Assembly: GCA_938020445.1 (NCBI GenBank)
Contig: CALIIC010000159.1
Coordinates: 1-38,117 of the forward strand
Source: an uncultured Flavobacteriaceae bacterium
GTDB lineage: Bacteria; Bacteroidota; Bacteroidia; Flavobacteriales; Flavobacteriaceae
Length of the DNA: 38,117 nucleotides
Direction of reading: 5' to 3'
Shown here: positions 2,532-13,651 of the stretch, piece by piece
Numbering within the stretch: position 1 is the first letter of the stretch
Layout of the letters: every line of letters starts with the position of its first letter
Notes under the pieces: model-generated
Seen by the model: the letters and a program-made list of their open reading frames with translations, nothing else
What the model was told of the DNA's origin: nothing
Database searches by the model: none
Program-made: the position numbers and the translations under genes

Positions 2532-3554
2532 ATGATAAAACTACCTTTTACCTATACGGCCGCATTCCTTTTTTCACTTGTACTGAGTTGTAATAGCACA
2601 CAAAATACCACGGCACAGACCGCATCTATATCAAAACCCATCCCTCAGGACTCCCGTAGTTTCCGGAACGATATGCGCAGCTTTGTAGTGAAACTTAGTA
2701 CGTATGCGAAAGCAATAGACCCAGATTTTGCCATTATTCCCCAAAACGGTATCGAGTTGGTTACAGATACCGGCTATGCCGATGGTGCGCCAATGATGAC
2801 TTACTTAGCGGCTATTGATGCGAATGGGCAAGAAAACCTTCATTATGGTTATCATGGTGATAACAAACGCACCCCCAAACGCAGTGGTGACTATATGAAC
2901 GGCCTTCTGCAAGTTTCACAGCAAACGGGCAATTCTATTTTTGTCATAGATTATTGTGACACGGAGAAAAAAATAGTGGATGCACACCAGCAATCGTACA
3001 AAAAGAATTTTATCCCCTTTGTCGCCACTGAACGAAATTTAACGGTCATCCCCAAGATTTCGGCAAGTCTGAATAAAATAAACACAAATGATATTCAAGC
3101 AATCAATGCAGCTAAAAATTTCCTTTTTTTCCTGAACTATGAAAATTTTGATACAAAAAACAGCCTTCTGACCGCAATTGCCAACACTGATTATGATGTT
3201 GTTTTTATCGATTTGTTTTTCAATGACGGCACCCCGTTCACATCTGATGAAATTACTAGGCTAAAAACAAAGGCTAATGGTGCCAAGCGCCTGGTTTGTT
3301 GTTATATGTCTATCGGGGAGGCAGAAGACTATCGGTTCTATTGGAAAAAAGAGTGGAACAACGACAAACCCTCCTGGTTAGATGCCGAGAACAAAAATTG
3401 GCCCGGAAATTACAAAGTCAAATATTGGGATACAAACTGGCAAAACATTATATTAGGAGGCGAAAATGCTTATTTAGACAAAATATTAGAGGCAAATTTC
3501 GATGGTGTTTATTTAGATATTATCGACGCATTTGAATATTTTGAAGCTGATTAG
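2532..3554 (+). CDS. Lipoprotein GH114/TM1410-like putative glycosidase, circularly permuted
   Basis: The likely start is ATG 2532, giving 340 residues, because it yields a lipoprotein signal (VLS-C20); the open frame upstream to 2400 adds a non-signal extension. The protein has the signatures of the MJ1477/TM1410 putative endo-alpha-1,4-polygalactosaminidase family (GH114, TIM barrel), but in swapped order. The half that is C-terminal in TM1410 (YAKAIDPDFAIIPQNG, 58-73; FIPFVATERNL, 160-170) comes first, and the canonical N-terminal half (YMSIGEAEDYRFYWKKEW, 258-275; WPGNYKVKYWD, 290-300; FDGVYLDIIDAFEYFE, 323-338) comes last. The protein ends just after the mid-barrel strand, as expected for a permutation. 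It is 162 bases before the pelF-like gene, so a role in Pel-like polymer turnover is inferred. Confidence 0.75.
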   Translation: MIKLPFTYTAAFLFSLVLSCNSTQNTTAQTASISKPIPQDSRSFRNDMRSFVVKLSTYAKAIDPDFAIIPQNGIELVTDTGYADGAPMMTYLAAIDANGQENLHYGYHGDNKRTPKRSGDYMNGLLQVSQQTGNSIFVIDYCDTEKKIVDAHQQSYKKNFIPFVATERNLTVIPKISASLNKINTNDIQAINAAKNFLFFLNYENFDTKNSLLTAIANTDYDVVFIDLFFNDGTPFTSDEITRLKTKANGAKRLVCCYMSIGEAEDYRFYWKKEWNNDKPSWLDAENKNWPGNYKVKYWDTNWQNIILGGENAYLDKILEANFDGVYLDIIDAFEYFEAD

Positions 3555-3635
3555 CCGAGCCCCCTGTATCGTACTTATACCGCCGTTTATCCCTATCTGT
3601 CGCATGTCATAGATAAAATGCACGCGTTGGGCTAA
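3555..3635 (+). pseudogene. In-frame coding-like remnant after the GH114 stop
   Basis: After the TAG at 3552-3554 the same frame stays open for 26 codons to a TAA (3633-3635), reading PSPLYRTYTAVYPYLSHVID and then KMHALG. The pattern LYRxYxxxYPxL resembles the extreme C-terminus of FGGY sugar kinases such as xylulokinase, so it may be the end of a gene otherwise deleted. The stretch is short and could be chance. Confidence 0.2.
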
Positions 3636-3716
3636 AAAAAATTAACATTTCATTGCTATTGGTTTTCTTTACCTGTTGAATCAAAATTTGAACAAGAGGG
3701 AAAAAACTACGTAGCA

Positions 3717-5225
3717 TTGAAAAATAAGATTAAAGTACTATTGATTACTGAAGGCACCTACCCCTTCAATACAGGAGGTGTTTCTACTTGGGCTCATGAT
3801 CTCTGCTCTAGGATTTCTAATTCTGAATTTTACTTATATGCAATAAACGCCGGTGTAGAACTTGCACCTAAATACCCTTTGAGTTCACATGTTAAAAAAA
3901 CAATTCAAGTACCAATGTGGTCCCCTGAAGAACCCTTTGACTGTGTGGACTACGACATTAAATATTCAGATGTTTTAAAAGCACGGGAGTATACTTCAGA
4001 AGACTTGATTCGAGAAGCATTCGTTCCCAATTTCAAAAGATTTATTCAGATTATCTATTCAGAAGACCAGTCGATTACAGGATTAAACGACTGCTTTTAT
4101 CATATGTGGTCTTTTTTTCAACAGTATGATTATAAAGTGACAATGACCAGCGAAACAGTCTGGAATGTCTTTTGCCGTACCTTACAAGAAGTACTCCCGA
4201 GCAACGAACTTGAAGAAATGTTGCTGGAAGACATCACCACCGCCATGCGCTGGATCTATCGATTTTTAATTCCCATAGCCATCGATGTACCAAAGACAGA
4301 CGTCTCGCATGTTACCATTTCAGGAATTGCCGTGCTCCCTGCACTTTCGTTAAAATACAAATACAACACACCCATTTTGGTGACAGAACACGGAGTGTTT
4401 ATACGCGAACGACTTATCGCAATAAGTGCTGCCGACTACTCCTATTTCCTTAAAAAAATGCTTATCAACTTTTCGGAGTGTATCACGCGTTTGGTGTATC
4501 ATCATGCGTCGGAAATATCTACCGTAAGCAAATTTAATATGGCGTGGGAGTGCTTTTACGGTGCAGATATGAGTAAAATAAAGGTGATTTATAACGGAGT
4601 GGACCACAACTTCTTTAAACCCCTTCCAAAACCGAAAGAACATGCGAACACGCCTACCGTTGTGGCGGCTGCTCGAATTTTCGATTTAAAAGATATTTTA
4701 ACTATGATTCGTACCTGCGCGGAGGTACAGAAAACCATTCCGAACGTACAATTCTTAGTCTATGGCAACAAAGACGCCGTACCCGAATACACCAAAGAAT
4801 GTGAACTTCTTATAGCCACTCTCAATTTAACCGAGAATTTCTTTCTAAAAGGCTTTCACAATAGACCTGAATATATTTACGCTGAAGGCGATATTTCTAT
4901 TTTGACTTCCATCTCAGAGGGATTCCCGTATACCGTTATTGAATCTATGAGTTGTGCGGTTCCGGTTATTGCAACAGATGTGGGCGGTGTATCGGAGGCC
5001 CTGGATGATACCTGTGGCTTCATTTGTAAACCTAGGAATCATGTAGAAATAGCGGAAAAAGTTGTAAAACTCCTTCAAAACGAACAATTACGTAATTGGA
5101 TGGGTGAAAATGCACGAAACAAGGTAATCGCAAATTTTACGATAGATAATTTTATCAATGCTTTTGAAAAAACGTATGAAACACTAAGCCAAAAAAATAG
5201 CGTAATTCCCAAAAGATACGCCTGA
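3717..5225 (+). CDS. pelF: PelF-like GT4 glycosyltransferase
   Basis: This 502-residue cytoplasmic enzyme probably polymerises the chain from a UDP-sugar. The N-terminus KVLLITEGTYPFNTGGVSTW matches PelF (DUF3492 region), and the C-terminal half is a GT-B fold with the GT4 signature: Glu401-x7-Glu409 in SEGFPYTVIE, followed by SMSCAVPVIATDVGGVSEAL. Length is close to that of Pseudomonas PelF. The start is a TTG codon at 3717; no ATG lies upstream in frame near it, and the conserved TEGTYP motif begins about 10 residues later, so TTG is credible. A PelG-like gene follows 35 bases downstream. The family call is strong; the sugar made is unknown, though Pel is a GalNAc/GlcNAc- or GalNAc-rich polymer in studied systems. 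Confidence 0.85.
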   Translation: MKNKIKVLLITEGTYPFNTGGVSTWAHDLCSRISNSEFYLYAINAGVELAPKYPLSSHVKKTIQVPMWSPEEPFDCVDYDIKYSDVLKAREYTSEDLIREAFVPNFKRFIQIIYSEDQSITGLNDCFYHMWSFFQQYDYKVTMTSETVWNVFCRTLQEVLPSNELEEMLLEDITTAMRWIYRFLIPIAIDVPKTDVSHVTISGIAVLPALSLKYKYNTPILVTEHGVFIRERLIAISAADYSYFLKKMLINFSECITRLVYHHASEISTVSKFNMAWECFYGADMSKIKVIYNGVDHNFFKPLPKPKEHANTPTVVAAARIFDLKDILTMIRTCAEVQKTIPNVQFLVYGNKDAVPEYTKECELLIATLNLTENFFLKGFHNRPEYIYAEGDISILTSISEGFPYTVIESMSCAVPVIATDVGGVSEALDDTCGFICKPRNHVEIAEKVVKLLQNEQLRNWMGENARNKVIANFTIDNFINAFEKTYETLSQKNSVIPKRYA

Positions 5226-5260
5226 ACCATTTTTCGACCGATTCAAAATTCCAGCCCCCG

Positions 5261-6865
5261 ATGGATCAAATTAAAAACAACATACATCTTGTAACCCAAG
5301 AGGTTATCCAAAAAATTGGTGACCCCGTAAGTCCTATGGTTGTCCTGGCTACGTTGGAATCCTTTGGCATACGAGAAAAAGATGTTTTTCAAGATTATGG
5401 CCTTCCCACTAAAATGGACCTTGCAAAAGAGCTCTTTAAGACGCTTAAGGCCATGGATAAATCCGAATTAAAAAACAGCAACGAACGTAAGAAAATCAAT
5501 CGTACGGCTTCGATTCCAGTATCGGGGTACCTTTGGATGAAGGCAAAGCTGTTCACGCAATTCTATCCCTTGGGAATTTTTCATTTACTTCCTATTTTTC
5601 TGCAGGTAGCGGCGATTATATTCTTTGGGTATTCCTTATGGACATTCATAGGTTTCAATGTTGTTCAATCTACCTCTGTAGTTCTCGGGGTAATTTTAGG
5701 CCTCATCATCTCTGGCGGGTATGTACAAGTTATGGGGAGGCAGGCTTCTTTCTATTGGCATCATGGGGAATACTCGAAAGCTAAGATGGTTATCGATAAG
5801 TTGATCCGATCAGGTATCAAGGGAATTTTATCTACGTTTCTCATTATAGGACTTTTGAACTTTTTCTTTAACCTATACCCTTTTACCTTTATCTTGATTA
5901 CCCTAATATACGCCTTGCTAATTGGGTTGCTTTTGTTGGTAATGGCTCCCTTTCACACCATTAAAAAACGTTGGGCGATTTCCGTGGCTATTTTAATCGC
6001 TACGGGCTTGGCACTTTTCTTGCACTTTAACACCGAATTGAACGTATACCTCACCCATTGGATAGGAATTTCAGCTGCAATTATTCTTTCCAAATTACTA
6101 TTGAACTACTTTTTTAATAGAAAAGGTGCCGAATCATTGCATCAAACCATCAAACCCAAAAAATTGATGGTGATTTACAAAAACTACCATTACTTTTTTT
6201 ACGGTGTTCTCATCTATGTCTTTGTGTTCATTGATCGTATTGTTGCATGGTCTGCCGATATTCAGTTTACCAGACAGTTCTTTCTCTTATATGAAAAAGA
6301 TTATGAAATAGGAATGGATTTGGCCATCTTAATGTTTTTCATGCTTGCCGGGGTTATGGAATATGGTATTGCTGCCTTCAGCAAATTTATGGATGTAAGA
6401 CAACATCATACTTCATTTTTAAAGAAACAAGATTTCAACAAACACCTCGGCAGAATGTACTGGGGACACGTGCTGCTGTTGCTATGTACTGCCTTGGCCA
6501 CTACCGTGTTGATTTACTTACTTATTACCCAACCTTGGGGATATGCGGCACATTTTGGAGAACAATTAAATACGCTAAGTGTCAAGGTCTGCATTATTGG
6601 AGGCATCGGGTATTTTTTGCTCACCTGGGGTATGCTGAACAGCCTTTACCTCTTTACGTTAAATCGACCTAAGGGAGCCTTAAAAGCCCTATTCATAGCC
6701 TGTATCGTAAATTTTGTAGTGGGCTTTGTCCTCAGCAGGACCATTGCCTACGAATATAGTGTGGTGGGTATGCTGATCGGTGCTTTCGTATTTACCGCGC
6801 TCACTTTAAAAGAAAATATTCACTTTTTTAATCGCTTGGACTATCATTATTATGCGGCTTACTAG
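5261..6865 (+). CDS. pelG: PelG-like exopolysaccharide inner-membrane transporter
   Basis: This 534-residue polytopic protein has an N-terminal cytoplasmic segment of about 100 residues followed by about 12 transmembrane helices, the MOP/Wzx-like layout of PelG. It ends with LDYHYYAAY, resembling the Tyr-rich ends I recall for PelG proteins. Pseudomonas PelG is near 456 residues, so the extra N-terminal segment (about 1-90, charged, helical) is unusual and could be a small partner-like domain. PelG is thought to move the growing polymer across the inner membrane with PelF, whose homologue lies directly upstream. Its end overlaps the next gene by 14 bases, showing tight coupling. Start ATG 5261 is the first in frame. 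Confidence 0.8.
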   Translation: MDQIKNNIHLVTQEVIQKIGDPVSPMVVLATLESFGIREKDVFQDYGLPTKMDLAKELFKTLKAMDKSELKNSNERKKINRTASIPVSGYLWMKAKLFTQFYPLGIFHLLPIFLQVAAIIFFGYSLWTFIGFNVVQSTSVVLGVILGLIISGGYVQVMGRQASFYWHHGEYSKAKMVIDKLIRSGIKGILSTFLIIGLLNFFFNLYPFTFILITLIYALLIGLLLLVMAPFHTIKKRWAISVAILIATGLALFLHFNTELNVYLTHWIGISAAIILSKLLLNYFFNRKGAESLHQTIKPKKLMVIYKNYHYFFYGVLIYVFVFIDRIVAWSADIQFTRQFFLLYEKDYEIGMDLAILMFFMLAGVMEYGIAAFSKFMDVRQHHTSFLKKQDFNKHLGRMYWGHVLLLLCTALATTVLIYLLITQPWGYAAHFGEQLNTLSVKVCIIGGIGYFLLTWGMLNSLYLFTLNRPKGALKALFIACIVNFVVGFVLSRTIAYEYSVVGMLIGAFVFTALTLKENIHFFNRLDYHYYAAY

Positions 6866-7667
6866 TATCATTTACTTTTTACTACCCTTCTTAACGGAGC
6901 GGCCACCTGCCATAGAGCGCAGCAAGGATAGTTCGCCCTTGTTTGTGTGCTATGGACGCATTGAACCTAGCACACTCATTGACAATGAATTGCTTATTCT
7001 AGAGTCACAGCATTATACTACGGACGAAATTGACCTGATAAAGGGACAAAATAAAAAGGTTTTAGCATACCTAAGCCTTACCGAAGTGCATGAAGCGGCC
7101 TTCTTTTACCAAGCTATTAAACCTTATATACTTAGCAAGAATAGCCATTGGAACAGCCAATATATCGATATCTCCAACCAAAATGCACAAGAGATTCTAT
7201 TCAATGCGGCCGATACCATTCTCTCAAAAGGTTTTGATGGCCTTTTTCTAGACAATCTAGACAATGTAGGCGAATGGGGCAGTCTTTCAGGAAACGATAC
7301 CGCCTTAGTGAAATGGGTAACAAAATTAAAAACAAGGGCTCCAAAAAGCTTCCTAGTTCAAAATTCGGGTCTCTTCTTACTGGAACAACTGAAACCTCAT
7401 ATTGATGCCGTTGTTCTTGAGTCGTTCATAACGGCCTATAACTTCGAAACAAAAAAGTATGGATTACGTGACGCAAATGCAAGAATCGCCCTATCAAAAA
7501 AAGTTAGCGGAATCAGAAAAAAAATTGGGAAGCCTATTTATATCATCGAATATGCAGACAACCTCCGATTGAAGAAAAAGGTAGAACGGGCCTTAGAACA
7601 AATGGGGTATCCGTACTTCATTGCCAACATTAACCTAATGACCATCCCCAAATTTAAAGACCAATAA
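6852..7667 (+). CDS. GH114-like hydrolase (PelA hydrolase-domain homologue)
   Basis: This 271-residue protein has a short hydrophobic N-terminus (MRLTSIIYFLLPFL) that could export it or anchor it. The rest is a TIM barrel in the normal GH114 order: YLSLTEVHE (73-81), then FDGLFLDNLDN (128-138) with Asp134 and Asp137, then VVLESF (187-192) with Glu190. By position these correspond to the acidic active-site residues of the PelA hydrolase domain, which cleaves GalNAc-rich Pel. It overlaps the pelG-like gene by 14 bases and is followed 6 bases later by the next gene. In Pseudomonas this domain is the N-terminal part of PelA; here it is separate and the deacetylase part is encoded two genes downstream. 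Confidence 0.75.
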   Translation: MRLTSIIYFLLPFLTERPPAIERSKDSSPLFVCYGRIEPSTLIDNELLILESQHYTTDEIDLIKGQNKKVLAYLSLTEVHEAAFFYQAIKPYILSKNSHWNSQYIDISNQNAQEILFNAADTILSKGFDGLFLDNLDNVGEWGSLSGNDTALVKWVTKLKTRAPKSFLVQNSGLFLLEQLKPHIDAVVLESFITAYNFETKKYGLRDANARIALSKKVSGIRKKIGKPIYIIEYADNLRLKKKVERALEQMGYPYFIANINLMTIPKFKDQ

Positions 7668-7673
7668 CACCAA

Positions 7674-9653
7674 ATGTTCCTATTCGATAAAATACTATTG
7701 GGCCCCTTTCGAATCCTTCTCCTTTTTTTAGGGGTATTGTTTGTGCATCAGCTGATTGTAAGACAACCACTTAAGAATTATGGGATGGACTATCTCCTGA
7801 AAAGAATGGTATTCTTGGGCAGTACTCTAGTGCTACTAATTTTCGCATTGATCCAACTGAACATGTATGACATTTTCTCGATACTTGCCATTTTCTTGAT
7901 TACGGTAGTTCTTCGATATCTAGACATACGATCTTCAAAGACCATAGCAAAAACCTTTACGGAGAAAAAAAGAAATTTTCTGTTGTCGTTCTTCAAATTT
8001 ATGGAACGAAAGCTAAGCTTGCATGCACTGATCGGCACGAATTCCGCTTTCTTCTATTCGAAGAAGCTCAACCACGTACTTTTTGCCGCTTTGTTGGTTT
8101 CTTTGGCCACTTTTGTTTCCCGTTTCCTTTTCCTTAAGAACGACCTATACACACTGTCTAGTCTGTGGATCAAAAAATTAGAGGTAGTAAAGAGTTTCAA
8201 CTCCAATGTTTGGTTTACAGAGAGCGCAGATCTTTTAGGGGAATTGGCACTTATAAATTTCTATGCGAAGATTACCGGGGTAAGCGAAGAGATGGCCATG
8301 CATTCCTTCGGATTGCTCGAAAGTTTTAGTCTTTCAATAGTGCTCTATTGGATTATTCTAAAACTTACGGAAGACCGATTCATAGCACCTATGATAGGGG
8401 TTTTGTTTTTTGGTTTCTTCTATAAGTACATGCCTATAAATGTGAACCTATTACTTGAACACAACTCGTTATATCTTGCCTTGGGTCTTGCCTTGCCAGC
8501 CTTGCTATTTAGTTGTATGCCTCAACTTATATCGGTTCAAACGAATAAATATGTTCTTTTTCTTTCGATAGTTTTTGCGGCAATTACATTTACCAATTTT
8601 TTTGTGGCACTTATCTTGGTTCCCATCTTTTTAATTGTTGCATTACTATTGAGTACCCGCCATAACCGGTCTTATACCATGCTTAGCATTGCCTCTTATA
8701 TCATAGGGGCCGGGGGCACGTTGATACTCCATGCTTTGGGTTGCCTTGTTAACAATCGTTCCTTTCTAGAGTTTATGCGGTCATCAATGATATTGGTAGA
8801 TTCCTATACGTATTTTCCTCAATTGGCACTTCCTCCAAGCCAATTGACCATGCTGTTCTACGCATTTTGTATGGTAGCGATACTTTTCTTGCTTCCCTTA
8901 CTTTCAAAAAACAATGAAAAATGGCGACCTGCGCTGATTTTTTTGGTCTTCGCTTATTTGGTCGTAACCCTTCGCTACCTACAACTCACTTGGTTAGACA
9001 TGGACCTGTACTACGAATCCCTTAGTCCGTTAATGGTAATTGTAGCTGGTATTTTCATCGGTATGCTTGTTCATTATTTAAAAGTGACGCTACCAAAAAA
9101 TAGTACCCTGAAAACGATTTCTATAGGCATCTTGTTTATGTTGATGGTCTTGTTCGCCTATACGACAAATGGTTTTTTCAACTACGACTACAAAGAAATA
9201 GATGAGTTGAAAGCCGATATTTTAGAGGTTTATGATGACTTGTCTAGTGATAATATGCCTTTTTCATATGCTATTGTAAACCAAAATTATGGTCAATACC
9301 TAAGTAAAAATGAACACCATTTTATCAATTACTCCGATTTTCTGCAGAAGTACCCCGTTCGGGATTCTGTTTATCAACTAAAAAAGGACGACAAATTGTT
9401 CTTGGAGAAAAACCCTGACTACATACTTCCAGAAAGCGTCTTTGTGTTTATTACAAAAACTGCCGAATCCGAAAACAAATACAACCTCGCTACCTCAGCA
9501 GAAGTGTCAGAAAAAATATTGAGCCAAATAACCATTTTAAAAGGGAAAGGGAGAGAAATTAGTATTTTTTACGAGGATGCCTACCTATCGGTATACGAAA
9601 TTGTGAACAAAAAAAATGCGTCGAATCTAAATGATTTAATATTCAATTTATGA
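7674..9653 (+). CDS. Polytopic GT-C-like membrane protein of the Pel-like locus
   Basis: This is a 659-residue protein with many hydrophobic segments over residues 1-500 and a soluble C-terminal part (about 505-659) that should face the periplasm. A segment around 138-157 ends with FLKND (Asp157), and the following stretch (ADLLGELALINFYAKITGVSEE, 185-206) before the next helix is reminiscent of GT-C glycosyltransferases, which carry a catalytic acid in the first periplasmic loop. This is a weak fold-level inference. It is neither PelD (no GAF or GGDEF-like part) nor PelE (no TPR). It is coupled by 6 bases upstream and by a 4-base ATGA overlap (9650-9653) downstream, so it acts with the Pel-like proteins. 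It may add a sugar or other group to the polymer, or help assembly. Confidence 0.6.
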   Translation: MFLFDKILLGPFRILLLFLGVLFVHQLIVRQPLKNYGMDYLLKRMVFLGSTLVLLIFALIQLNMYDIFSILAIFLITVVLRYLDIRSSKTIAKTFTEKKRNFLLSFFKFMERKLSLHALIGTNSAFFYSKKLNHVLFAALLVSLATFVSRFLFLKNDLYTLSSLWIKKLEVVKSFNSNVWFTESADLLGELALINFYAKITGVSEEMAMHSFGLLESFSLSIVLYWIILKLTEDRFIAPMIGVLFFGFFYKYMPINVNLLLEHNSLYLALGLALPALLFSCMPQLISVQTNKYVLFLSIVFAAITFTNFFVALILVPIFLIVALLLSTRHNRSYTMLSIASYIIGAGGTLILHALGCLVNNRSFLEFMRSSMILVDSYTYFPQLALPPSQLTMLFYAFCMVAILFLLPLLSKNNEKWRPALIFLVFAYLVVTLRYLQLTWLDMDLYYESLSPLMVIVAGIFIGMLVHYLKVTLPKNSTLKTISIGILFMLMVLFAYTTNGFFNYDYKEIDELKADILEVYDDLSSDNMPFSYAIVNQNYGQYLSKNEHHFINYSDFLQKYPVRDSVYQLKKDDKLFLEKNPDYILPESVFVFITKTAESENKYNLATSAEVSEKILSQITILKGKGREISIFYEDAYLSVYEIVNKKNASNLNDLIFNL

Positions 9654-12600
9654 TCGACCAAAAGTATACCGTTCTTTTATGCTTCGTCCTCTTTACCATA
9701 GGATGCCAAAGAGATATCTATAATTTCACAAACGGGTTCAATGCACCCGAGGTAAGTAAAGAGCCGCCCTTGATTCAGTTTGTGGTCGATGAACAAATTC
9801 CTGAAAACCTCGATGAAGCCGCAAACCTTCAAAAGTTGACCGATTACACAAAACTGCCCTATCAAACAATCCCCTTTTATGACTTCAAGGATGGTTTTAA
9901 GGTAGAACCAACTACGCGCGTTCTTTGTATATATCAAACCTTTGGCATGCAAGATGCTGTCATAGATTCTCTTCAACATTTTGTGGCCAAAGGAGGTACC
10001 CTCTTGTTTACAAAGACCGTTCGAGATGAACGGTTGGCATTTCTATTAGGGCTCGAACCAAGCAGCAATCTTGAAACCGACAGCATTGCGCATGGTTTTT
10101 ATCTAAAGAAACCCATGCTACCGGGAATGGGCAGTTTTGAATACGAAGGCGACAAAAGTGAACACAACGGGCTTGCCATTGACAATTTTTCAGAAGATGT
10201 AACAATTTTCGCTACCGCGGCAAACGCCCCCGACTACCCTTTGATAATTGAGAACGAAATAGGAAAAGGGCGTGTAATACACTACAACTCAACCTTACGT
10301 CTTGATAGGGGAATGCGAGGGTTGCTGTTCTCCCAAGTACTCTTTGGCTTGGAGGGCATACCCTATCCCATTGCAAATACATCCACTATTTTTCTAGATG
10401 ATTTCCCATCGCCCTTGTACAACATATACAAGGCTCCTATTGCCGAGGAAATGAAGAAAAATGTGGCACAATACGTTACTGATGTCTGGTGGCCCGATAT
10501 GAAATCCTATGCCAAAGAGCAGAACATAAAATATACGGCCTATGTCACATTCGATTACAATACCTATGTTACACCACCTTTTACCTTTAAAGAATGGGAT
10601 AAAAACAGTTTTGAAAAGGAAGGTATAGAACAAGAAAAAAGTAGTTGGTTAGGAAGAGATGTTTACCGAAGTGGGCACGAATTAGGATTTCACGGTTACA
10701 ACCATGTTTCGCTTTTAAAATCTGACTGGAAAGAAGAACAATACATTGTTACTGCCTTGAACGTTGCCAGTAAAAAATGGAAAACACTAGACTTTAAAGA
10801 ACTGCCTCTTTCATATGTTCCTCCGTCAAATTATATTGATAGTGTTGGCCTTGCCAAACTTAAGGAGGGAATGCCCAGCATCAAGTATATTCAAAGTCTG
10901 TACTTGGGAAACCTTCATGATGGTGGGGCGCGGGAGTTCGACCCGGACCCTTTCAACGATAAATTCTTTGATTATCCCAGAATTACCAGTGGTTACCAAT
11001 TGAACAACACCAATCTTTGGGCCATGGAATCGCTATACCTTTTCACTGGGATATGGACACACTTCATTCATCCTGACGATGTTTTCCAGATACCCGATGA
11101 GTCGAATAAAGCTACCAGTGGCCATTTTGCATACAGGAACCCGGCAGCACTCAATTGGCACTCTTATGGGAGTAAAAAAGGACTCTTTGATATTTTTAAA
11201 GATGATATCGCCGACTTCAAAAAGCGACATCCACTGGTTCGTTTTCAGAATGCCACCCGTTCTTCCGATATTGTTAGAGATTGGCGTTATGCCTATTTCA
11301 GTCATATAAAGGAAGAGGGGAATTATATTGTGGAGAGTGACTACAAAATTGGAAACGAATCAAAACAGTATTGGTTCATGTACGTAAGTGCTAAAAATGA
11401 ATCTCTTGTAGATGATGCCCTTGCAACAGTTTCCCAAGTAAAGAAAACGCCTTTCTTGGATGGTATTCTTTATTCCATTGAAACCAAAGAGGCCTTTATC
11501 AAAATTCCCGATTTAAAAATTAAGGGAAAGGATGGTCTTACCTCAGAAACCAAAGCCCTCGGAGAAGTCCAAAAAGCATATGATGACTATTATGGCGACC
11601 GTAGTATTTTAGCTCCTTTGAATCTGCAGGTAGCAGCACTGGTTGCGGAAGATGAACTTCAAAAAGCCACCGATCTCTTAGAGGCCAACCTTGAAAAGGG
11701 AATTGTTTTCGGCCGAAAACAATGGGTAGACTACGCCACCTATCTTGGGTGGCAAGATCGTAACGCCGATGTATGGAAGATGCTAGAAAAACAATACCGA
11801 AAGAAAGAATCAAAGGCCCTTGCCAACATTTCCCGAAAGGTTTCCAAGGAAGTAGACTATCCCAATGACCAAATACGTGAAACTTGGCTTTCGAGACAAA
11901 TTTTATGGGGTACCGATGACATTAAAGCACTAAAAGAATACTATACCTATTTTAATACAGAGGAACGAAAGAGTACGGTGTTAAAAGTTTTACGACAATT
12001 GCACATACTTGACCCGAATAAAGAAAATTCCAAAAACTATATCAGCCATTTGATCAATAACCAATTCGATGGCGTGGTTCCTGAATTGAACAACATAACC
12101 CCATGTGATCCTTTTTACCAAGACATGGCGACGGCTATTGCCTGGGCCTATGCCGACAGACTCCGTTTTGATCGTGCATTGCTATGGGAAAAATGTAGTG
12201 GTGAAATTGACCGGGACACAAGGAATAGTTGGTTGGCGAACACCAACTCTTTTGAAGAGCTCAAAAAAACAGATTACCAATTTTATCTGCAAATATTGCT
12301 TGCCAATGATGAGAAAAAAGCCCTGCGGGAAGTCCGAAATAGAAAGCCGTGTTCGTCTCAATTGCAACAACATTCCAAAGCGATTGCTTTTGCCTATGCG
12401 AATTTCAAACTATACCGAGAAGCGTTGGCCTGGGGACATTGTAGCAAATCAGTTCCAATGAACTCTAAACTTTCTTGGTTGTATGAATTGAGGGAATACC
12501 AAAAAGCGCAAAGGGTATATGCAGATTATATATCCAACTATCCGGAAGATTATGCCACAAAACTCCACATGGCAACCTTGTTACTCCAACAAGGTGATAT

Positions 12601-13651
12601 AAAAGGTTCGGCATCCATTTCTTCTGGCCTGCCCAAGCATGTAGAAACAGGTATTTTAAGAGAAGAAATCAACAAACAAATTAAAGGCTTAAACAATATT
12701 GAGAAAAGAGAAATCGTGGACGCTTACGGAAACGTACTCTATTCTGGAATTCGGAAAGATGTTTTGAGCGCCTTGCGTATGGAGGAAGGCAATTCGGTAA
12801 GCACAAACACCATGGCCATTAACGATCAATTAGACCCAAATACCATCTCCAATAGCATCAGTTATAGCATTTATGATAAAGATTTTAATGTGCATAGCTT
12901 TTCGGGTACTCAAAGCTTTATGTACCCCATTAATTTTATCCAAGAAGATGATACCAATGGTATGCGAACACTGTATGGAATCGAATATCGGTTCAAACAG
13001 CCAGCATCAAAGAAAGCCGCTTTCCAGGGAAGGGCTCGGTTGGAAAGAGATGTACAAGGCGAGGTATATTATCAGATAGGGGTCGGAGTAAATTTATCAG
13101 GGGAAAAAAGATACAATTCAGTTGTTTTAGAACATTTTCCGGTTCGCAGCGGCCCTGGTCATATTTTAGGAATCTACAGAACCCAATTATCTAGCTATAA
13201 CGAGTACCAGGTGACCAACAAAACCAAGCAAATAGTATCGTTCGAAGGCAATCACTACTCCGACAACGAATTGGATGCCATCATCATCGGACGCACAGAA
13301 TACCAGGTGTATAAAAATAGCTGGCTTACACTATCCCCGCTGATCGAGCTTTCTTATGCTCGTGGCACCACAGATCGGCGCGATGGCTTCCCTTATTGGA
13401 TAGCGGCCGATAGGATATATGGGGGAGGCGGAGTAGCTTTTGGGATAGGATCGGAGAAAAGCACTTTCAACTTCATGGCCGATGCCTCGCTTTTCGCCGA
13501 AAGCAGTCAACCCAACTTTCAAAGGTATACTGGTAATGTATCCTATAGACTAAAAGACTTTGCTCGAATTTTAGCAGGTTTTGAAGTGTATACCATTGAA
13601 AACTTCAATAGCAATGTATTTCAATTGGGCCTCATTTATAATTTCAAATAA
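9650..13651 (+). CDS. Fusion of PelA-type deacetylase domain with PelB-type repeat scaffold and outer-membrane barrel
   Basis: This 1333-residue predicted lipoprotein has a candidate lipobox FTIG-C19. Residues about 20-240 form an alpha/beta region. Residues about 240-560 look like a polysaccharide deacetylase of the DUF2194/PelA kind: FLDDFPSP with Asp250-Asp251, then GHELGFHGYNH giving metal ligands His348 and His352 (HxxxH), then WTHFIHP with His471 and His474. Residues about 640-1010 are helical and repeat-like (TPR-like, for example LEANLEKG, ASISSGL). Residues about 1040-1333 alternate as amphipathic beta strands and end in FQLGLIYNFK, as in an outer-membrane barrel such as that of PelB. 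It should deacetylate and export the polymer in a single chain. The deacetylase motifs are clear; the PelB homology is inferred from order and context. Confidence 0.72.
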   Translation: MIDQKYTVLLCFVLFTIGCQRDIYNFTNGFNAPEVSKEPPLIQFVVDEQIPENLDEAANLQKLTDYTKLPYQTIPFYDFKDGFKVEPTTRVLCIYQTFGMQDAVIDSLQHFVAKGGTLLFTKTVRDERLAFLLGLEPSSNLETDSIAHGFYLKKPMLPGMGSFEYEGDKSEHNGLAIDNFSEDVTIFATAANAPDYPLIIENEIGKGRVIHYNSTLRLDRGMRGLLFSQVLFGLEGIPYPIANTSTIFLDDFPSPLYNIYKAPIAEEMKKNVAQYVTDVWWPDMKSYAKEQNIKYTAYVTFDYNTYVTPPFTFKEWDKNSFEKEGIEQEKSSWLGRDVYRSGHELGFHGYNHVSLLKSDWKEEQYIVTALNVASKKWKTLDFKELPLSYVPPSNYIDSVGLAKLKEGMPSIKYIQSLYLGNLHDGGAREFDPDPFNDKFFDYPRITSGYQLNNTNLWAMESLYLFTGIWTHFIHPDDVFQIPDESNKATSGHFAYRNPAALNWHSYGSKKGLFDIFKDDIADFKKRHPLVRFQNATRSSDIVRDWRYAYFSHIKEEGNYIVESDYKIGNESKQYWFMYVSAKNESLVDDALATVSQVKKTPFLDGILYSIETKEAFIKIPDLKIKGKDGLTSETKALGEVQKAYDDYYGDRSILAPLNLQVAALVAEDELQKATDLLEANLEKGIVFGRKQWVDYATYLGWQDRNADVWKMLEKQYRKKESKALANISRKVSKEVDYPNDQIRETWLSRQILWGTDDIKALKEYYTYFNTEERKSTVLKVLRQLHILDPNKENSKNYISHLINNQFDGVVPELNNITPCDPFYQDMATAIAWAYADRLRFDRALLWEKCSGEIDRDTRNSWLANTNSFEELKKTDYQFYLQILLANDEKKALREVRNRKPCSSQLQQHSKAIAFAYANFKLYREALAWGHCSKSVPMNSKLSWLYELREYQKAQRVYADYISNYPEDYATKLHMATLLLQQGDIKGSASISSGLPKHVETGILREEINKQIKGLNNIEKREIVDAYGNVLYSGIRKDVLSALRMEEGNSVSTNTMAINDQLDPNTISNSISYSIYDKDFNVHSFSGTQSFMYPINFIQEDDTNGMRTLYGIEYRFKQPASKKAAFQGRARLERDVQGEVYYQIGVGVNLSGEKRYNSVVLEHFPVRSGPGHILGIYRTQLSSYNEYQVTNKTKQIVSFEGNHYSDNELDAIIIGRTEYQVYKNSWLTLSPLIELSYARGTTDRRDGFPYWIAADRIYGGGGVAFGIGSEKSTFNFMADASLFAESSQPNFQRYTGNVSYRLKDFARILAGFEVYTIENFNSNVFQLGLIYNFK

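Follow-up and report, generated by a model that had tools for sequence, protein, structure and literature searches.

A probable Bacteroidota variant of the Pel exopolysaccharide system with a predicted deacetylase-exporter fusion

We analysed a stretch of 38,117 nucleotides from an uncultured Flavobacteriaceae bacterium (GenBank assembly GCA_938020445.1, contig CALIIC010000159.1, positions 1 to 38,117 of the forward strand), called the window below. An earlier model-made note on it, the original prediction, had proposed a Pel-like exopolysaccharide locus at 2532-13651. Open reading frame calls gave six same-strand genes at 2532-13651, the last five almost contiguous. The frames lay where they had been predicted, and both predicted overlaps were confirmed (14 bases at 6852-6865 and 4 bases at 9650-9653). 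Within the core that runs from PelF to the fusion gene the gaps were 35 and 6 bases, and 162 bases separated the first GH114 gene from PelF. The 2532-3554 gene starts at an ATG within a GTG reading frame that begins at 2400. The features are listed here (aa, amino acids; TPR, tetratricopeptide repeat).

2532..3554, + strand: GH114 lipoprotein-like protein, 340 aa, of TM1410/TIGR01370 type, domain halves swapped (circularly permuted)
3717..5225, + strand: PelF, GT4 polysaccharide synthase, 502 aa, TTG start as called (NF038011, DUF3492)
5261..6865, + strand: PelG-like inner-membrane exporter, 534 aa, PF16933 under cut-off, about 110 extra N-terminal residues
6852..7667, + strand: PelA-type (GH166-like) galactosaminidase, 271 aa, best profile matches being PelA structures
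7674..9653, + strand: predicted GT-C-fold integral membrane protein, 659 aa, from predicted structure and Foldseek, without a Pfam family
9650..13651, + strand: deacetylase-TPR-barrel fusion, 1333 aa, with a lipoprotein-type N-terminus (Cys19)
9707..11329, + strand: CBM114/CE26-like deacetylase region of the fusion, about residues 20-560, from the 9zau alignment, active-site residues conserved
11546..12787, + strand: TPR-type helical scaffold of the fusion, residues 633-1046, from helices in the model and TPR proteins in the profile search
12794..13642, + strand: predicted 16-strand outer-membrane beta-barrel of the fusion, residues 1049-1331, from strands in the model and Foldseek

We examined 26 relative loci besides the window, selected for PelF, DUF2194 or neighbouring genes (our labels for loci, genomes and families begin with L, G and f). 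In profile searches, the 502-aa GT4 scored 153.5 bits with NF038011 (cut-off 100) and 204.6 bits with DUF3492. Its predicted membership of the PelF family is therefore secure at the level of sequence profiles. The adjacent 534-aa membrane protein had been assigned to the PelG family. That assignment held in part: residues 111-531 were collinear with positions 34-452 of the 452-position PF16933 model, but the score in the window was 25.0 bits, below the cut-off of 29. PF16933 was detected at E 0.001 or better in 9 of 27 PelG-like homologues, and genome searches of the 27 carriers with the PelG model gave a match at the locus in 10, with 5 over the cut-off. These data suggest that the protein is probably a divergent PelG. 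About 110 N-terminal residues (5261-5590) precede the part covered by the PelG model; they contain conserved positions and had no Pfam family match.

Both hydrolases in the window were assigned to GH114 by domain search. PelA was the best solved relative of the 271-aa hydrolase (phmmer E 1.5e-11; profile search, 9cgy 8.6e-30 and 5tcb 9.9e-30), so that the nearest counterpart of the GH114 enzyme predicted within the unit is the PelA hydrolase domain of Pseudomonas. In the profile alignment (chain offset 25) its D134 and E190 fall opposite D160 and E218 of PelA, and the pair was kept in 26/26 aligned homologues (the L081 hydrolase, which is split into two frames, was left out of this alignment, A4). 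D160 and E218 are the residues mutated to inactivate the PelA hydrolase (PMC12022489; this and the other papers are cited for the passages available). The profile alignments thus identify the 271-aa protein as a PelA-type (GH166) hydrolase, a component of Pel systems. The 340-aa protein exceeded the TIGR01370 cut-off (191.5 bits against 181.25) and matched TM1410 at E 1.6e-29, in agreement with the predicted second GH114-type lipoprotein ahead of the core. It is circularly permuted: the first part of TM1410 corresponds to its C-terminal half and the second, weakly, to its N-terminal half. A gene of this type adjoined PelF in 7/7 flavobacterial-type loci and was not seen in the stretches examined for the other 20. 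GH114 proteins near two fusobacterial DUF2194-PelF loci (L094:11690-12589 and L095:21165-22121) also had the swapped order relative to the hydrolase profile, with one half weak.

The 1333-aa protein scored 236 bits with DUF2194, and its residues 58-483 aligned with PDB entry 9zau (E 8.6e-41). This entry is Bacillus cereus PelADA, the founder of families CBM114 and CE26, with active-site residues D262, D263, H350, H354, P405, R458, H488 and D491 (PMC13254593). The counterparts in the window are D250, D251, H348, H352, P392, R444, H474 and D477 (9zau alignment, chain offset 25), and all eight were kept in 27/27 fusion homologues. The full-length PelA chain 9cgy gave no match to the deacetylase at E up to 1, by sequence or by profile. 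By these alignments the deacetylase region is of the Gram-positive PelADA type (CE26) and not of the CE21 type of PelA, and its conserved active site suggests an active enzyme. The original prediction had described PelA as split. The hydrolase is indeed PelA-like, but the deacetylase is not the other half of a split PelA (CE21), a candidate that we rejected, and the term is misleading. Cys19 has equivalents in 20/27 fusion homologues; therefore the N-terminus of the fusion is probably lipidated.

We modelled residues 560-1333 with AlphaFold2 (27 sequences; mean predicted local distance difference test, pLDDT, 85.9) and obtained a long helical array followed by 16 strands. The five best Foldseek matches were, in order, BcsC, BcsC, 4y25, BcsC and the PelB of PelBC (9h80). 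The 4y25 entry (TMt 0.76) is annotated as a polysaccharide outer-membrane secretin and is, we presume, PgaA. The profile search found TPR proteins, with BcsC TPR at only E 0.053. By predicted fold, this half would be a PelB-like TPR and barrel exporter, indistinguishable from BcsC or PgaA. The claim that PelB is merged with the deacetylase accordingly stands as architecture but not as PelB descent, since BcsC and 4y25 outscore PelB. The same ranking favours a different origin, in which a cellulose-like or poly-N-acetylglucosamine-like exporter was recruited, with a barrel of the BcsC/PgaA line fused to a Gram-positive-type deacetylase and a convergent likeness to PelB. The lack of a recognised PelC also speaks for recruitment, as BcsC and PgaA manage without further lipoproteins (PMC12141448). 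PelB, BcsC and PgaA nevertheless share the 16-strand barrel (PMC12141448), so the rank is not discriminating, and none of the three gave a useful sequence E-value. We regard recruitment as a serious possibility that falls somewhat short of even. Since BcsC and PgaA work without such lipoproteins, the missing PelC is no bar to export.

The window copy of the 659-aa protein had no Pfam or NCBIfam match up to E 0.01, and DUF6541 matched 1/26 of its homologues. Its model (pLDDT 76.7) retrieved GT-C glycosyltransferases as all 15 top Foldseek matches, 9 of them at E 0.001 or better (oligosaccharyltransferase entries, PglB, ArnT, DPY19, ALG12, ALG3 and AftD). The model thus supports a GT-C fold class, as originally predicted, and does not single out an individual enzyme. 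We observed that E206 and D442 are invariant in 26/26 homologues. Because the family accompanies every locus examined (L071 by profile only), the protein is a constant part of this system. It might be a non-enzymatic membrane scaffold that holds PelF to PelG in place of PelD and PelE. The lack of a recognised PelD or PelE in the cassette, its presence at every locus and the variability of the presumed catalytic Asp would all suit such a role. The two invariant acidic residues could be catalytic, though, and the fold is typical of enzymes; we consider the scaffold doubtful while giving it appreciable weight.

To describe the distribution of the system we used one draw of 296 genomes across the phylum, with 3 to 5 first-look candidates scored per genome per search. 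Four markers, namely PelF over its curated cut-off, DUF2194 at high strength (E no higher than 4e-57), the barrel half and the GT-C family, each picked out the same 23/296 genomes, which span four families. The PelG family profile marked the same 23 and one 58-position fragment (G369). Because the GT-C, PelG and barrel profiles derive from these very loci, they find their own matches by construction; their informative part is the lack of strong matches elsewhere (3 or 4 first-look candidates per genome), and the GT-C profile found no member in the other 273 genomes. G435 was matched by the GT-C profile at 8e-33 though it lies outside that profile's alignment. The strong DUF2194 matches of 23/23 genomes sit in open frames of 1268-1349 aa, that is, always fused, and no unfused strong DUF2194 or barrel half was found in the draw (3 to 4 first-look candidates per genome). 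Several weaker matches were left out of these counts. The PelF model gave GT4 matches in all 296 genomes, of which the 23 over the cut-off were counted. Another 14 genomes had weak DUF2194 matches in frames of 298-842 aa, with E from 1.3e-7 to 7.9e-4 and a single one slightly above the cut-off. The barrel half matched weakly in 42 further genomes, the best of them (3.1e-8) covering positions 305-459 of the model, which belong to the TPR part. The G369 fragment and a G177 fragment with stops (3.7e-4) were also excluded, and L071 was left out of alignment A2. Co-occurrence of the genes, which the original prediction depended on, was therefore complete in the sample. A parts list peculiar to one flavobacterium did not hold up, as the same set recurs in 23 of 296 genomes; the survey rejects a lone oddity of one genome.

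The core genes were together in 26/26 relative loci and followed the order PelF, PelG, hydrolase, GT-C, fusion in 25/26, with one additional gene within the core order in 19 of those 25. A 518-543 aa protein is encoded between PelG and the hydrolase in 19 loci of f37 and f26 (L072-L092; for example L072:7115-8737), and 5/5 scanned copies carried an HD domain. L071, the most distant locus, has its hydrolase upstream and other genes ahead of the fusion. The 14-base overlap was present in 6/7 flavobacterial-type loci, window counted. Linkage beyond chance, together with the confirmed overlaps, bears out the proposal of one working unit. For each of four proteins, profiles from the 19 f37/f26 loci (18 for the hydrolase) recovered all seven flavobacterial-type copies, none with an E-value above 1.4e-43. 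Trees built from distances were concordant between the parts (r 0.87-0.99; 0/999 permutations as high in each of 15 comparisons), an agreement that shared species history alone could explain. These results also bear on the idea of a glycan-degrading cluster that merely resembles Pel. Two GH114-type hydrolases and a downstream S9 peptidase gene would fit degradation. A PelF over its cut-off, a PelG-like exporter, full co-occurrence in the sample and operon overlaps would not, and we hold this explanation to be very improbable.

We found no GGDEF domain in the genome of the window (81.92% complete). Genome searches of the 27 carriers detected GGDEF in 3, never within the locus stretches, and EAL in 0; the background was GGDEF in 108/198 phylum genomes. 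As no GGDEF or EAL domain was found in most carriers, control by cyclic diguanylate (c-di-GMP) through PelD is unlikely in them. PelC, PelD and PelE, which the original prediction could not recognise, were likewise not recognised among the cassette proteins. For PelC, the window leaves no gene space between PelF and the fusion and gave no family match, no genome-wide search being made; for PelE, the general domain searches gave no family match, no PelE profile as such being run. In the 19 genomes of f37/f26 with the 518-543 aa protein, we observed no GGDEF in 17/19 and no EAL in 19/19. At L071:3136-13898, genes for an RsbW-like ATPase, a GAF-SpoIIE protein, a GAF-HD protein and a STAS protein, a partner-switching set, are interleaved with the pel-like core. 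L072 has histidine kinase and receiver genes in or beside the cassette. At L093:638-5152 (G005), a sigma-70-family factor, a TPR protein and a TPR-CHAT (caspase-like) protein directly follow the fusion gene. Their position suggests that such varied regulators may control the locus. For streptococci, a Pel that does not depend on c-di-GMP was proposed earlier (PMC7112168).

The Bacteroidota-type promoter pattern had two matches in the window, none at 2532-13651 and not above shuffles, and scans for sigma-70-like promoters and terminators yielded no more than shuffled sequence. Upstream, at 327-1849, lie genes for an iron-dependent-repressor-type (MntR-like) regulator and a ZIP metal transporter, a pair found in 6/7 flavobacterial-type loci, window counted. 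A link between this pair and metal supply to the CE26 deacetylase, a metal enzyme, is possible.

The cassette is probably a Bacteroidota version of Pel, a synthase-dependent exopolysaccharide system, with deacetylation and export coupled in one chain. Its product would be a deacetylated galactosaminan-like polymer, to judge from the families present. By family, PelF would polymerise an alpha-1,4 chain of the N-acetylgalactosamine (GalNAc) type in the cytoplasm, and the PelG-like protein would carry it across the inner membrane. In the periplasm, the chain would meet a single lipoprotein that combines a CE26 de-N-acetylase, a TPR rail and a 16-strand outer-membrane pore. The architecture, read from sequence and model, suggests that deacetylation and export are coupled within one polypeptide, replacing the docking of PelA on PelB. 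The PelA-type hydrolase may trim chains. The GT-C protein would most likely be a periplasm-facing transferase, or else a scaffold in place of PelD and PelE. In most carriers a c-di-GMP switch is unlikely to act on these steps.

Several observations tell against this reading. The deacetylase is of a different type from that of PelA, and PelB comes behind BcsC and 4y25 in the fold search. The C-terminal model has a predicted template modelling score (pTM) of 0.50, so that the placement of its domains relative to each other is uncertain. PelB is described as anionic, but the TPR region in the window is close to neutral, with a net charge of +1 over 415 residues; charge was -13 or lower in 16 of the other 26 homologues. 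The barrel half of L071 matches the profile of the other lineages at only 28 bits. The PelG model finds nothing at the locus in 17/27 carriers and stays under the Pfam cut-off in the window, and the PelG-like family profile did not match the annotated Cetobacterium PelG (hhalign included). The GT-C likeness is one of fold class only, with TM by query length 0.29-0.39 and root-mean-square deviation 12-18. D157 of the GT-C protein, which we take, from GT-C topology, to be the likely catalytic Asp in the first periplasmic loop, is D in 7/26 and N in 17/26 homologues. Presence or absence of GGDEF runs by family and does not serve as independent evidence.

The same weaknesses leave room for a polymer that is not Pel, made by a Pel-derived machine. 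Here the GT-C protein would add a lipid-linked sugar in the periplasm, or the synthase would use another sugar, to give a branched or mixed hexosamine polymer. GT-C enzymes such as those among the Foldseek matches use lipid-linked donors. The divergence of PelG, the restriction of the GT-C family to the 23 locus-bearing genomes, and a second GT4 ahead of PelF in 20/26 relative loci (19 of f37/f26 and L071; families f37, f26 and f44; its DUF3492 domain checked in one locus) also favour such a polymer. Opposed to it, the active sites of the hydrolase and the deacetylase are those of enzymes acting on alpha-1,4 galactosamine/GalNAc chains, and the candidate catalytic Asp of the GT-C protein varies across lineages. 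We regard this alternative as unlikely. A related proposal, which we put forward as speculation and think a little less unlikely, is a c-di-GMP-independent Pel-derived system. In it, an obligate GT-C transferase would decorate the chain in the periplasm from a lipid-linked donor, the pore-fused enzyme would deacetylate it at the pore mouth, and the regulators plugged into this common core would differ between lineages (HD protein, two-component, SpoIIE/STAS, sigma/CHAT).

If the Pel assignment is right, it places Pel-type machinery in a phylum where the literature searched does not describe it. The fusion would be natural evidence that Pel deacetylation and outer-membrane export form one coupled step, as proposed from PelA-PelB interaction studies, and a single polypeptide makes the coupling testable without rebuilding a complex. 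With a constant GT-C part and no c-di-GMP switch, the core that polymerises, modifies and exports the chain may be able to work under other control. Among the matches listed in the literature searched, no title or abstract opening reported a Bacteroidota Pel locus; DUF2194 was mentioned in two papers. Thermotogae, Actinobacteria and others are named in the operon survey PMC7112194; "Bacteroidetes" and "Flavobacter" are absent from its main text as available, and its supplements may list such genomes. PMC8305213 tabulates Pel proteins, apparently for Pseudomonas. The available passages of PMC9894940, PMC9848294, PMC6610971, PMC12016536 and PMC9012183 describe no such locus, and an activated-sludge survey cited in PMC12016536 may contain such loci.

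We file the cassette as a Pel variant, and not as a standard Pel operon, because PelF, the hydrolase and the exporter fold were found while CE21, PelD and PelC were not. BcsC and PgaA, which export other polymers, lack the fused CE26 deacetylase. They share the TPR scaffold and 16-strand barrel and, as here, have no lipoprotein ring (PMC12141448). A fusobacterial pel cluster, on the Cetobacterium somerae plasmid NZ_CP092520.1, likewise unites GH114, DUF2194, PelF and PelG, with the GH114 halves swapped and one of them weak. It differs in an unfused DUF2194 protein (609 aa) and in a GAF protein, and had no convincing match to the GT-C and barrel profiles (best E 0.11 and 0.26, small set). The pelDEADAFG operon of Bacillus cereus shares the deacetylase family with its eight active-site residues, and in both systems the deacetylase is not joined to the hydrolase. 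PelADA is a separate protein in B. cereus, whereas here it is the front part of the outer-membrane exporter, and no PelD or PelE was recognised. The N-terminal membrane helix of Bacillus PelADA is proposed to contact PelG (PMC13254593); in the present system the exporter carries the PelADA-type enzyme instead, so the site of deacetylation along the path may differ. Compared with Pseudomonas aeruginosa pelABCDEFG, the cassette has no recognised PelC, PelD or PelE, a CE26-like in place of a CE21 enzyme, an extra GT-C-fold protein and, in most carriers, no detected GGDEF or EAL. It shares with that operon PelF, a PelG-like exporter, a GH166 hydrolase with the D160/E218 equivalents, and a TPR and 16-strand exporter, here fused to the deacetylase. 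Repeats 9-14 of PelB are where PelA docks in Pseudomonas, and PelB enhances deacetylation by PelA (PMC12022489), a picture that the predicted fusion, by analogy, fits.

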